DNA from: Chitinophaga pinensis
Lineage (GTDB): Bacteria; Bacteroidota; Bacteroidia; Flavobacteriales_D; Crocinitomicaceae
DNA length: 64,000 bases
Direction of reading: 5' to 3'
Assembly (NCBI GenBank): GCA_945902745.1
Contig: CAMDNE010000002.1
Span: 62,001-126,000, forward strand
This document shows positions 8,848 to 62,008 of the stretch, one piece after another. A program made the position numbers and the translations under genes. Within the stretch, counting starts at the first letter, position 1, and every line of letters begins with the position of its first letter. Under the pieces are notes generated by a model, which ran no database searches, was not told where the DNA came from, and saw only the letters and a program-made list of their open reading frames with translations.

Positions 8848-9306
8848 ATGGCAAAATCTCAAGAGACATTTAATAAAAAAGAAAAAGAAAAGAAACGTTT
8901 AAAAAAACGTCAAGATAAACTTGTTACAAAAGAAGAACGTAAGGCAAGTTCTCAAGGAGGTTCCTTGGAAAGTATGATGGCTTATGTTGATGAATTTGGT
9001 AATATCTCTGATACTCCGCCAGATCCAAATGTTGTTAAAAAGAAAATCAATGCAAGTAGTATTGAAATTGGAATTCCAAAAAGAAGTGATGAGCCTCAAG
9101 AAACGGGTCGCCAAGGAAAAGTTACTTATTTCAATGACTCAAAAGGTTATGGTTTCATCAAGGATTTGATGACTCAAGAAAATGTATTTGTACACGTTAA
9201 TGGGTTAACAGAAGAAATTGCTGAAAACGACATGGTTACTTTCGAAGTAGAACGCGGAATCAAAGGAATGAATGCAGTTCGGGTGAAGAAATTTAAACCT
9301 GAATAA
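8848..9306 (+). CDS. Cold-shock domain protein with basic N-terminal extension
   Basis: 152 residues. The C-terminal part (about 88-150) is a cold-shock domain with the RNP1-like KGYGFIKD and RNP2-like VFVHVNGL motifs, which bind single-stranded RNA/DNA. The first 40 residues are a highly charged, Lys/Glu-rich extension (KKEKEKKRLKKRQDK) predicted helical or coiled, and residues 40-85 are likely flexible. It likely acts as RNA chaperone or translation factor. It has its own promoter, a long leader and a strong terminator, so it appears monocistronic. Confidence 0.9.
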   Translation: MAKSQETFNKKEKEKKRLKKRQDKLVTKEERKASSQGGSLESMMAYVDEFGNISDTPPDPNVVKKKINASSIEIGIPKRSDEPQETGRQGKVTYFNDSKGYGFIKDLMTQENVFVHVNGLTEEIAENDMVTFEVERGIKGMNAVRVKKFKPE

Positions 9307-9374: not shown

Positions 9375-9390
9375 TGTAACTCATGTTACA
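9375..9390 (+). promoter_or_regulatory. Crp/Fnr-like operator upstream of DUF983 gene
   Basis: TGTAACTCATGTTACA: inverted 6-bp half-sites TGTAAC/GTTACA separated by 4 nt, the size and spacing of Crp/Fnr superfamily operators. Its centre (9382.5) is 29.5 nt before the first base of the -7 box, i.e. about -43 from the predicted start, the position used by class II activators. A near-identical site with the same geometry precedes the rhodanese gene (10774-10789). Confidence 0.65.
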
Positions 9391-9411
9391 CTTTTAAACG
9401 TTTCAAAGAGA

Positions 9412-9419
9412 TAATTTTG
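9412..9419 (+). promoter_or_regulatory. -7 box of the DUF983 gene
   Basis: TAATTTTG matches TAnnTTTG. Predicted start near 9426, six nt before the ATG at 9432. No -33 element is seen where the operator lies, as expected for an activator-dependent promoter. Confidence 0.55.
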
Positions 9420-9431
9420 TTAAAAACTCCA

Positions 9432-9800
9432 ATGAAAAAGGGAACGAAAATATATAGTATTTTAAACAATAAATGTCCACATTGTCACGAAGGAGATTTT
9501 TTTGAAGGATCCTTCTTTAAAGCGAAACCAAAAGAAACATGCGACGTTTGTGGGACTAAACTCACCAAAGAACCAGGATTTTATCAAGGTTCTTATTACG
9601 TTGTTTATGCTTTGAGTGTTGCTGTTTTTGTTACCGTTTGGTGCACAATAAGTTTGTTTTTTAAGAGTGTTAGTTTTAATGGTATGATAGCTGCAATTTT
9701 GATAAGTCTTTTAGCCACAGCGCCAATCAATTATCCGCTTTCGAAAATTATTTGGGCTAATTTTTTCTTCAAATATAAAGAGAATGGAATTAAATCATAA
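9432..9800 (+). CDS. DUF983 family membrane protein
   Basis: 122 residues from the ATG at 9432. A TTG at 9417 would add five residues but overlaps the -7 box. Two CxxC pairs (NKCPHCHEGDFF and ETCDVCGTKL) look like a small zinc ribbon, followed by two hydrophobic segments (about 55-80 and 85-105). This is the DUF983 pattern of Bacteroidota and Alphaproteobacteria, whose function is unknown though genes often occur near respiratory or cytochrome oxidase assembly genes. The operator at 9375-9390 suggests regulation by a Crp/Fnr-type protein. Confidence 0.85.
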   Translation: MKKGTKIYSILNNKCPHCHEGDFFEGSFFKAKPKETCDVCGTKLTKEPGFYQGSYYVVYALSVAVFVTVWCTISLFFKSVSFNGMIAAILISLLATAPINYPLSKIIWANFFFKYKENGIKS

Positions 9801-9859
9801 GGAATCTAATTTTAAAAGTATTGAAGCATATTTGTCCTATAATTAATATTATGTTAAAT

Positions 9860-9875
9860 AGTAACATGAGTAATT
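9860..9875 (+). promoter_or_regulatory. Degenerate third copy of the Crp/Fnr-like operator (doubtful)
   Basis: AGTAACATGAGTAATT matches the site at 10774-10789 at 13 of 16 positions, including the first 12, but the right half-site is damaged. It lies between two convergent genes and I find no -7 box at the 29.5-nt distance on either strand. It may be a weak or relic site. Confidence 0.25.
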
Positions 9876-9946
9876 CCTTGCTAAATTGTTTTTAACATCA
9901 CAACATTACTTCTACTTGCTTTTTTTGATTTATAAAATAAATTTTG

Positions 9947-10225
9947 CTAATCCTTCTTATCTGTCATTCTACCCACTGCGCAACTTACAAATGATTTTGC
10001 TTTTTGCATGATCGAATTTGGATCCGTATCAATTGGATAGCCTAGGCTGGCTAGTTTCTTTTCTACGATGTCAATTTGATTCTCATTGTTATATTCAAAT
10101 GTAACTGAATGAGACTCAATTTCTACTTTGACATTGGAAATTCCTTCTAATTTATTTAAAGCATTTGTAATCGTGTTTGCACATCCATCACACTTTAAGT
10201 TTTGCAAAATTTCTGTTTTTGTCAT
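9947..10225 (-). CDS. Heavy-metal-associated (HMA) domain protein
   Basis: 92 residues. The N-terminal 65 form an HMA ferredoxin-like domain with the metal-binding CxxC at Cys12-Asp-Gly-Cys15 (LKCDGCANTI), as in copper chaperones and mercuric-transport modules. The C-terminal 25 residues carry an extra Cys (SFVSCAVGRM). It lies downstream of the rhodanese gene on the same strand (97-nt gap) and could be cotranscribed from the operator-controlled promoter. Metal is most likely Cu(I), by family. Confidence 0.85.
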   Translation of the reverse strand: MTKTEILQNLKCDGCANTITNALNKLEGISNVKVEIESHSVTFEYNNENQIDIVEKKLASLGYPIDTDPNSIMQKAKSFVSCAVGRMTDKKD

Positions 10226-10322
10226 GATTCCAACTATTTATAATTTTCACTACTATAAGTTTCTGATTTTTCTAGCAAATTAAAACAGCTTTACTTATGT
10301 TAAATAGGTTGTTTGTAATCTA

Positions 10323-10721
10323 TTACCAATTTCCGTAACCGCCTTCTAAATCATAAACTTTCGTAAATCCCATTTCTTTCATCATCGCAGCAGCTTTTCC
10401 ACTTCTTCCTCCTGCTTGACAATATACTAATACAGGTTTAGTTTTATCTAATTTAGCAATATTCGTTTTGAAATTTGCACCATTAAAGTCTATGTTTTTA
10501 GCATTAGCGATATGACCTCCATTATACTCACCACTCGTCCGAACATCAATTAATTGTGCTTCTTTGTTCGTCATCAACGTTTTGAATTCTGATTTTGTCA
10601 CAACTTTGTTGACAGTTCCAGTTGACAGTTCCTTCTGATTTTTTGATTTAGCAGTTGTTTGTGCATCACTGCAAGAAATCATAGTAATTGATACAGCTAA
10701 TAAAATAATGTATTTTTTCAT
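10323..10721 (-). CDS. Exported rhodanese-like lipoprotein
   Basis: 132 residues from the ATG at 10721. A longer frame from 10781 would run through the operator and -7 box, so it is rejected. The N-terminus MKKYIILLAVSITMISCSDA is a lipoprotein signal with Cys17. The single rhodanese domain has the CH2A-like RTSGEYNGGHIANAKNID and active-site loop VYCQAGGRSG with its catalytic Cys. It likely handles sulfane sulfur or thiosulfate in the periplasm. The promoter carries the Crp/Fnr-like operator. Confidence 0.88.
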   Translation of the reverse strand: MKKYIILLAVSITMISCSDAQTTAKSKNQKELSTGTVNKVVTKSEFKTLMTNKEAQLIDVRTSGEYNGGHIANAKNIDFNGANFKTNIAKLDKTKPVLVYCQAGGRSGKAAAMMKEMGFTKVYDLEGGYGNW

Positions 10722-10744
10722 CGAATGAGTTTTAAATTTGGACT

Positions 10745-10752
10745 GCAAGGTA
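10745..10752 (-). promoter_or_regulatory. -7 box of the rhodanese gene
   Basis: Minus-strand TACCTTGC resembles TAnnTTTG (TAnnTTG variant). The predicted start is near 10738. Its first base is 29.5 nt from the centre of the operator at 10774-10789, identical to the DUF983 promoter. Confidence 0.45.
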
Positions 10753-10773
10753 CTTATTGTTTGAAAATCTTTG

Positions 10774-10789
10774 AGTAACATGAGTTACA
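10774..10789 (-). promoter_or_regulatory. Crp/Fnr-like operator upstream of rhodanese gene
   Basis: AGTAACATGAGTTACA on the plus strand equals the reverse complement of the DUF983 operator at 15 of 16 positions, including the asymmetric 4-nt spacer. It is also in the intergenic region of the divergent lipoprotein gene at 10870, whose own -7 box begins 63 nt from the operator centre. Confidence 0.65.
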
Positions 10790-62000: not shown

Positions 62001-62008
62001 TATCTTTG
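62001..62008 (+). promoter_or_regulatory. -7 box of the lipoprotein gene; decides the start codon
   Basis: TATCTTTG matches TAnnTTTG. The ATG at 61981 would lie upstream, so the ATG at 62029 is used. Confidence 0.5.

Follow-up and report, generated by a model that had tools for sequence, protein, structure and literature searches.

We examined a 64,000-nt stretch of DNA (hereafter, the window; positions 62,001 to 126,000 of contig CAMDNE010000002.1, assembly GCA_945902745.1) from a genome deposited as Chitinophaga pinensis and placed in the Crocinitomicaceae (Bacteroidota), in which two matched operators precede the gene for a DUF983 protein and the genes for a rhodanese-like sulfurtransferase and an HMA (CopZ-like) protein. 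Our comparisons suggest that both sites are probably class II operators serving a stress regulon for sulfide and sulfane sulfur, with a thiol-based Crp/Fnr protein as its activator, for which the candidate in the source genome is a 219-aa protein encoded at C1:31964-32620. A preliminary description of the window had proposed Crp/Fnr-type operators at a class II position, serving a small regulon. Both proposals are supported. The comparisons establish the sites with their fixed geometry and conservation, the genes behind them, the co-occurrence with one regulator and the conserved cysteines of that protein, whereas its binding to the sites, its activating role and the signal are inferred.

When the rhodanese operator is read on the minus strand, the two window operators are identical at 15 of 16 positions, spacer included (Table 1). 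At both promoters the operator centre lies 29.5 nt from the first base of a -7 box, and this distance, together with the positions of both operators and both boxes, agrees with the preliminary description. The rhodanese box matches TAnnTTTG at four of the six fixed positions and fits the TAnnTTGY type. In Flavobacterium psychrophilum, the sigma-A box TAnnTTTG and its variant TAnnTTGY were mapped to -12 to -5, according to the available part of that report (PMC9723704). If the boxes here occupy the same position as in F. psychrophilum, the 29.5-nt distance puts the operator centre at -41.5 and the operator itself over -49 to -34, so that the earlier estimate of about -43 is shifted slightly while the class II placement stands. 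A centre at -41.5 is the textbook position of a class II activator and, by this predicted centre and the fixed spacing to the box, both window promoters would be of class II type. Across the window, seven palindrome matches with up to two mismatches were found compared with 2.76 expected, a number reached in 1 of 100 shuffles.

Table 1. Coordinates of the two operators, their -7 boxes and the genes behind them (positions within the window; gap, nucleotides between operator and box)
Feature	Position	Strand	Details
DUF983-promoter operator, TGTAACTCATGTTACA	9375..9390	+	Perfect palindrome; centre at -41.5, assuming a -7 box over -12 to -5
DUF983-promoter -7 box, TAATTTTG	9412..9419	+	TAnnTTTG, 0 mismatches; gap 21
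DUF983 protein, 122 aa	9432..9800	+	Two CxxC pairs; Pfam PF06170, 23.6 bits (cut-off 22.6)
Rhodanese-HMA promoter operator, AGTAACATGAGTTACA (minus-strand reading TGTAACTCATGTTACT)	10774..10789	-	
Rhodanese-promoter -7 box, TACCTTGC	10745..10752	-	TAnnTTGY type; gap 21; 2 mismatches to TAnnTTTG
Rhodanese-like sulfurtransferase, 131 aa	10323..10718	-	Pfam PF00581, 2.4e-23; lipoprotein-like N-terminus (by eye)
HMA (CopZ-like) protein	9947..10225	-	Pfam PF00403, 3e-12; C-terminal KAKSFVSCAVG

Judged by their fixed geometry and its conservation in other genera, the operators are not chance occurrences. A search with the profile of the regulator gave 584 loci, and the best 80 of these by regulator similarity (from Flavobacterium, Salegentibacter, Gillisia, Olleya, Aequorivita, Polaribacter, Crocinitomicaceae metagenome-assembled genomes [MAGs] and others) contained 76 operator palindromes, compared with 2 matches to a composition-matched control palindrome of our own choice. 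An exact TAnnTTTG box was found at a gap of 21 nt in 43 of the 76, once each at gaps of 3, 4, 27 and 31, and at no other gap within 44 nt. We also inspected all exact palindromes in 80 genomes of the family that were drawn irrespective of the motif (57, vs 39 matches to a backward control, by our own sum). None of the 29 palindromes located inside open reading frames (ORFs) had a box; among the 28 intergenic ones a box (≤1 mismatch) was present at gap 21 in 17, 15 of them facing an ORF, and at gap 20 in two more. The excess of 18 palindromes over the control is thus close to the number that show the geometry. In a sample of 118 genomes across the phylum, 42 carried the regulator (E ≤1e-20), and 11 of 20 loci taken with 1.5 kb on each side had an operator (≤1 mismatch) with a box (≤1 mismatch) at gap 21 or 22, in front of genes that by eye included MBL-type, TauE-type, DUF983-type, YgaP-type and HMA genes and that of the regulator, among others.

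The same geometry was found within the source genome. Perfect palindromes occur there three times (the DUF983 site of the window, C4:91457 and C14:57803) and matches with one mismatch allowed at 29 places, of which 23 are within ORFs (C19:43957 barely) and six are intergenic, with the rhodanese start set at 10718. In addition to the two window promoters, the intergenic sites precede a gene for a YgaP-type membrane protein (C3:19358), a DUF6132 gene with two rhodanese-like genes (C3:219835) and a gene for a fatty-acid-hydroxylase family protein (C14), and the sixth (C4) lies between two divergent genes, one for a Por-secreted kelch-like protein and the other for an M28 peptidase. Each of the six operators is followed, at a gap of exactly 21 nt, by a box beginning with TA (TAATTTTG, TACCTTGC, TAATATCG, TACTTTTG, TACATTTG and, on the two sides of the C4 site, TATTGTTG/TAATTTTC), with mismatches to TAnnTTTG numbering 0, 0, 0, 1, 2 and 2 across the set. 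Random scatter of the motif without promoter geometry, which the preliminary description had named as evidence against an operator, was not seen; a box at gap 21 was sharply preferred.

Conservation in relatives points the same way. The motif is kept at both genes in the closest genome searched (G037), and at DUF983 across the family; loss of the motif from these genes in close relatives, the other finding that the preliminary description would have counted against it, was thus not seen either. The DUF983 promoter of G037 shares 14 of 16 operator bases with the window and still has a TAAnTTTG box (TAACTTTG), with a diverged spacer between the two. Its rhodanese promoter has an identical operator, upstream of which conservation drops, and a box reading TATCTTGC. 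The TCAT/ATGA spacer noted in the preliminary description is indeed present at both window sites, but at the sites upstream of DUF983 in other genomes it is A/T-rich only and not conserved, and its sharing by the two window sites is, on this comparison, probably a coincidence. A third, degenerate copy of the motif at 9860-9875 of the window (AGTAACATGAGTAATT, with the same ATGA spacer) departs from WGTRACN4GTYACW at two positions, is situated 3' of the DUF983 and HMA genes alike and differs in its second half in G037 (which reads AGTAACATAAGTGATT); it is probably not an operator.

The site also co-occurs with the regulator. DUF983 upstream regions were compared in 50 of the 73 family genomes that bear the gene (one copy each), accepting operators with ≤2 mismatches to WGTRACN4GTYACW and boxes with ≤1. 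Operator and box were present in 37 of the 50, with gaps of 21 (34 genomes), 20 (two) and 19 (one), compared with 12 of 3000 shuffled sequences that preserved base composition alone. The pair was found in 37 of 43 regulator-bearing genomes vs none of seven without it (Fisher p 1.7e-5, although the genomes are related and the p value thus overstates their independence). By our count, the regulator was matched at E ≤1e-20 in 71 of the 80 family genomes, while nine had no match or a weak one (E above 1e-6); seven of these nine have DUF983 and all seven were examined, although five are only 82-96% complete, so the absence of a regulator may reflect an assembly gap. In relatives, moreover, DUF983 homologues adjoin one Crp/Fnr gene, as do rhodanese and TauE genes (20 neighbourhoods picked from the match lists of both the regulator and DUF983, which biases the DUF983 share).

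By content, the target genes form a predicted sulfide/persulfide regulon of the kind controlled by reactive-sulfur sensors. In the 80 regulator loci, the 43 operators with a gap-21 box stand before genes for TauE (21), MBL-rhodanese (6), cytochrome c lipoproteins (5), DUF983 (4), rhodanese-like proteins (2), the regulator itself (1) and unnamed products (4). The 17 ORF-facing family sites with a box at gap 20-21 precede genes for DUF983 (4), rhodanese-like (4) and kelch-like secreted (3) proteins, along with one each for an MBL-type, TauE-type, YgaP-type, DUF6132, fatty-acid hydroxylase and unknown protein. Genes resembling sulfide:quinone oxidoreductase (SQR) lie behind the operator in two loci (L166 and L190), with weaker boxes (two mismatches) at the same gap, and comparison of the L166 protein with human SQOR gave a match at 4.5e-107. 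Gene clusters present anywhere within the 80 loci included TauE (45), MBL-rhodanese (42), TPMT-like methyltransferase (23), rhodanese-like (19) and DUF983 (17), as well as cytochrome bd I/II (13/12), thioredoxin-like proteins (12, recognised by WCGPC), HMA (11), cytochrome c (10 and 7), YeeE/YedE (9 and 7) and the fatty-acid-hydroxylase family (7). Among the genes (six at most) that follow the regulator gene on its own strand without interruption, TauE was found in 43/80 loci, MBL-rhodanese in 36/80 and HMA in 10/80. Matches of MBL-rhodanese in NCBIfam, to the Blh sulfur transferase/dioxygenase and, as the top match, to GloB, are both far under their cut-offs; persulfide dioxygenase is thus a likely name for it.

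Pfam confirmed the three window proteins, DUF983 just over its cut-off and the rhodanese and HMA proteins clearly. The DUF983 product is, as we presume from its family assignment, a membrane protein. The rhodanese and HMA genes are 97 nt apart and probably co-transcribed, and the suggestion in the preliminary description that HMA is co-controlled gains support from relatives. HMA homologues in 11 of the 80 loci keep a KAKSFVSCAxG-like tail, in five of the 11 the gene directly follows a rhodanese-like gene (7-110 nt away), as in the window, and in one locus (L306) an operator with a one-mismatch box stands directly before the HMA gene. A further possible member is suggested by an operator with a gap-21 box (L304:2121, genome G166) before what by eye is a SulP-type anion transporter-like gene. 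A kelch-like secreted protein with the motif GGRxDGLHxRQP was observed behind an operator with its box at gap 21 in three genomes (L028:3811-5412, L164 and L180), with one of the sites shared with an M28 peptidase.

The predicted regulator belongs to the Crp/Fnr superfamily by its domains (PF00027, 36.3 bits, cut-off 27.5; PF13545, 32.3 bits, cut-off 27), and the best Foldseek matches were PDB 3dv8 and CRP. Whole-model superpositions had root-mean-square deviations of at least 10 Å for most listed matches (5.0-5.2 Å for 4ev0), and hence the fold assignment alone was used. Cysteine conservation was assessed in 29 of the 30 family regulator loci (excluding L049) and in 55 of the 80 named sequences, chosen by us. 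C86 is present in 29/29 and 55/55, C92 in at least 90% of the former and 55/55 of the latter, and C93 in at least 90% of both, and no other cysteine is conserved in either alignment. FNR proper is a [4Fe-4S] oxygen sensor with an N-terminal cysteine cluster pattern; given the lack of other conserved cysteines, such a cluster is absent here and the protein is not an FNR in the strict sense. The three cysteines (C-x5-CC) sit in GDTCAMTLxCC, within the cyclic-nucleotide (cNMP)-binding match (residues 37-124), in what presumably corresponds to the cAMP phosphate-binding cassette or loop of Crp, although the motif is unlike the phosphate-cassette signature of CRP proper. In an AlphaFold2 model of an orthologue (L200), the mean predicted local distance difference test score was 86.1, with residues 81-90 and 91-100 among the least confident blocks (72 and 64), which is compatible with, but no proof of, a flexible loop. 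The recognition-helix stretch SSRVVISRLLKQLE is strongly conserved in both alignments, matching the constancy of the operator.

The closest structural relative, 3dv8 (a Crp/Fnr-family protein of Eubacterium rectale), was the best match in both sequence and fold and has C-x5-C at the same place (DMCLLSASC); however, it shares only 24% identity and, of the three cysteines, lacks the last, the second of the CC pair. Two observations on individual regulators are also recorded. In one genome (L064:1144-2139, G031:C46) DUF983 and the regulator share a single 331-aa frame, which may be a fusion (a membrane-tethered regulator) or a frameshift; as this arrangement was found in that genome alone, fusion was discarded as a general link between the two. 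The L200 regulator (L200:7001-7657) also matches the NCBIfam family 2B encapsulin shell model weakly (21 bits, cut-off 400), and an encapsulin family has reportedly been linked with sulfur metabolism (PMC8049743).

As for the signal, we propose that persulfide or polysulfide would react with Cys86, Cys92 and Cys93, near the effector loop of the cNMP domain, and so switch the regulator. This would parallel CstR, BigR and FisR, which rely on two or three cysteines according to the available part of PMC9774590, and the conserved C-x5-CC would be compatible with persulfide modification altering DNA binding. The preliminary description had expected a redox-, nitric oxide (NO)- or metal-sensing regulator, a view that is refined here: no sequence feature indicates FNR-, NO- or metal-type sensing, the targets are mostly sulfide/sulfane-sulfur genes, and the regulator carries the conserved C-x5-CC. 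Its lead toward HcpR/DNR is not supported and was set aside, as the nameable clusters among the 28 commonest neighbours hold sulfur genes, and no hybrid-cluster, NO-reductase or other NO gene was recognised among the 28, not all of which could be named. It is nevertheless possible, if on the unlikely side, that the same operators, regulator and sulfur regulon answer another signal, with the cysteines forming a metal or redox site; because this explanation shares its core with the preferred one, their probabilities overlap. Low oxygen, copper or another metal, NO and small thiols such as glutathione are candidates because the regulator loci include cytochrome bd and the CopZ-like HMA protein, as well as cytochrome c, and because glutathione is an effector of two members of the superfamily, Vfr and PrfA (cited in the available part of PMC7315123). 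However, the commonest partners of the regulator are TauE, MBL-rhodanese and rhodanese-like genes, SQR genes stand behind operators in two genomes, and neither a copper exporter nor an NO-detoxification gene was found among the nameable neighbour clusters.

Regarding the direction of control, a dimer of the C1:31964 protein would bind WGTRAC-N4-GTYACW, replacing the promoter element that we take to lie at -33, and would recruit RNA polymerase to promoters with a TAnnTTTG or TAnnTTGY box. In the source genome, this would turn on the genes for rhodaneses, the HMA protein, DUF983, the YgaP-type membrane protein, DUF6132 and the fatty-acid-hydroxylase family protein and, in relatives, those for TauE, MBL-rhodanese, YeeE/YedE, cytochromes and SQR. 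We infer activation because the class II spacing is fixed. A repressor sitting at the -33 region and released by sulfur stress, in the manner of BigR or SqrR, appears improbable. An operator at this position would overlap the presumed -33 element and could block polymerase; however, repressors usually tolerate variable positions, while the spacing here is exact to the base pair (43 sites at gap 21 vs at most one at any other), as is seen with class II activators.

Several observations weigh against the sites being class II operators of this regulon under the C1:31964 protein. Raw counts in the source genome are not above the backward control (29 one-mismatch places vs 34; for the looser WGTRACN4GTYACW, seven places, five of them intergenic, vs eight), hence the palindrome by itself is uninformative there, and palindrome counting alone was set aside as evidence. 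The rhodanese box departs from TAnnTTTG at two of six positions. No exact box was present at gap 21 for 33 of the 76 palindromes in the 80 regulator loci, nor any box at gap 20-21 for nine of the 28 intergenic family sites, and two of the 17 gap-21 family sites (L187 and L189) do not face an ORF. Nine of the 20 phylum loci, including that of the source genome, have no operator with a box near the regulator gene, and the C1:31964 gene has no operator of its own and is not beside DUF983. In six of the 43 regulator-bearing genomes, the site is missing from the DUF983 copy that was examined. In two of these (G003 and G025) DUF983 lies directly behind a rhodanese-like gene and may thus be transcribed from a promoter further upstream; in G059 the copy examined lies away from the regulator gene; in G011 the operator has three mismatches and the box is perfect; and in G030 and G033 the missing site is unexplained. 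The source genome also encodes four other Crp-type proteins above the PF13545 cut-off and one below, and a genome in which no regulator was found (G068, 82% complete) has an exact operator before its SQR-like gene (L190). These last two points would favour a different Crp/Fnr paralogue as the protein that binds the window sites, such as the FNR-like C1:25180 or one of three encoded on C20. We consider this very improbable, as the DUF983 site tracks the C1:31964 family, three of the seven genomes counted as lacking the regulator (G010, G034 and G048) still give weak Crp-family matches, and it is the C1:31964-type protein that DUF983, rhodanese and TauE genes adjoin in relatives. Chance palindromes beside ordinary promoters, with which the source-genome counts would agree, can be dismissed almost entirely, being contradicted by the geometry in the 80 loci, the co-occurrence at DUF983, the family palindromes (none of those in ORFs showing the geometry) and the conservation of position and sequence in other genera.

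The proposed system resembles class II activation by E. coli CRP/FNR in its cNMP-binding fold, Crp helix-turn-helix and 16-bp palindrome centred at -41.5, but differs in the Bacteroidota promoter box, the lack of conserved FNR-type N-terminal cysteines and the location of its cysteines in the cNMP effector-loop region. It is similar to BigR/SqrR, CstR and FisR in that sulfide/persulfide genes would be controlled via reactive cysteines (PMC9774590 and PMC7315123, each available in part). Those proteins are of the ArsR, CsoR or Fis type, however, while the C1:31964 protein is a Crp/Fnr and does not belong with them. The same partly available sources present SqrR as repressing and FisR as activating transcription. 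The available part of PMC9774590 names CstR, SqrR, BigR, PigS, FisR, OxyR, LasR and OhrR as sensors of reactive sulfur, with no Crp/Fnr protein among them, and that of PMC7315123 reports that Crp of Acinetobacter baumannii was found persulfidated, with unknown effect. Of the Crp/Fnr proteins described in the Bacteroidota, which we compared with the C1:31964 protein by their descriptions, Porphyromonas gingivalis HcpR and PgRsp are reported to bind heme and to answer nitrosative stress and redox change, respectively, and CrpPg binds DNA without a ligand (available part of PMC12040651). In a study of a Flavobacteriales MAG, its Crp/Fnr homologue was tentatively assigned to MalR and carbon sensing (PMC8510549, available in part).

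Much organic matter in sediments, seas and guts is consumed by Bacteroidota, and the literature searched (bioRxiv and most subscription journals were outside its scope) contained neither a description of a C1:31964-type regulator nor a dedicated sulfide regulator for the phylum. We see about an even chance that, in much of the Bacteroidota, the sulfide/persulfide master switch is a Crp/Fnr protein in which a C-x5-CC sensor has evolved from the cyclic-nucleotide pocket and which acts as a class II activator at a fixed -41.5 operator, with DUF983, DUF6132, the HMA protein with its KAKSFVSCA tail and the kelch-like secreted protein as hitherto unrecognised components of sulfide physiology. If so, the Crp/Fnr superfamily would join the folds used in persulfide sensing. 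The operator and its fixed geometry provide a precise search rule, which would place the uncharacterised DUF983, DUF6132, CopZ-like, fatty-acid-hydroxylase family and kelch-like secreted proteins within a single physiological process, and make the sensing question directly testable.

Some further features were observed in the source genome. Other Crp-family genes include three consecutive ones (L024, G000:C20:15000-34000) beside genes that by eye are of molybdopterin and nitrate-transport type, and the FNR-like gene at C1:25180 lies beside cytochrome cbb3 and HemN-type genes (also by eye). One intergenic match to WGTRACN4GTYACW (C5:129713, L300; AGTAACAATTGTTACT) has no box at gap 21. It is located between divergent genes, one of which resembles rbfA, with a TATCTTTG box at gap 31 on the minus side that would put its centre at about -51.5, and may be a class I site. 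Directly upstream of the DUF983 promoter, the window (8848-9306) encodes an apparent cold-shock-domain protein, the N-terminus of which is extended by a long lysine-rich stretch.

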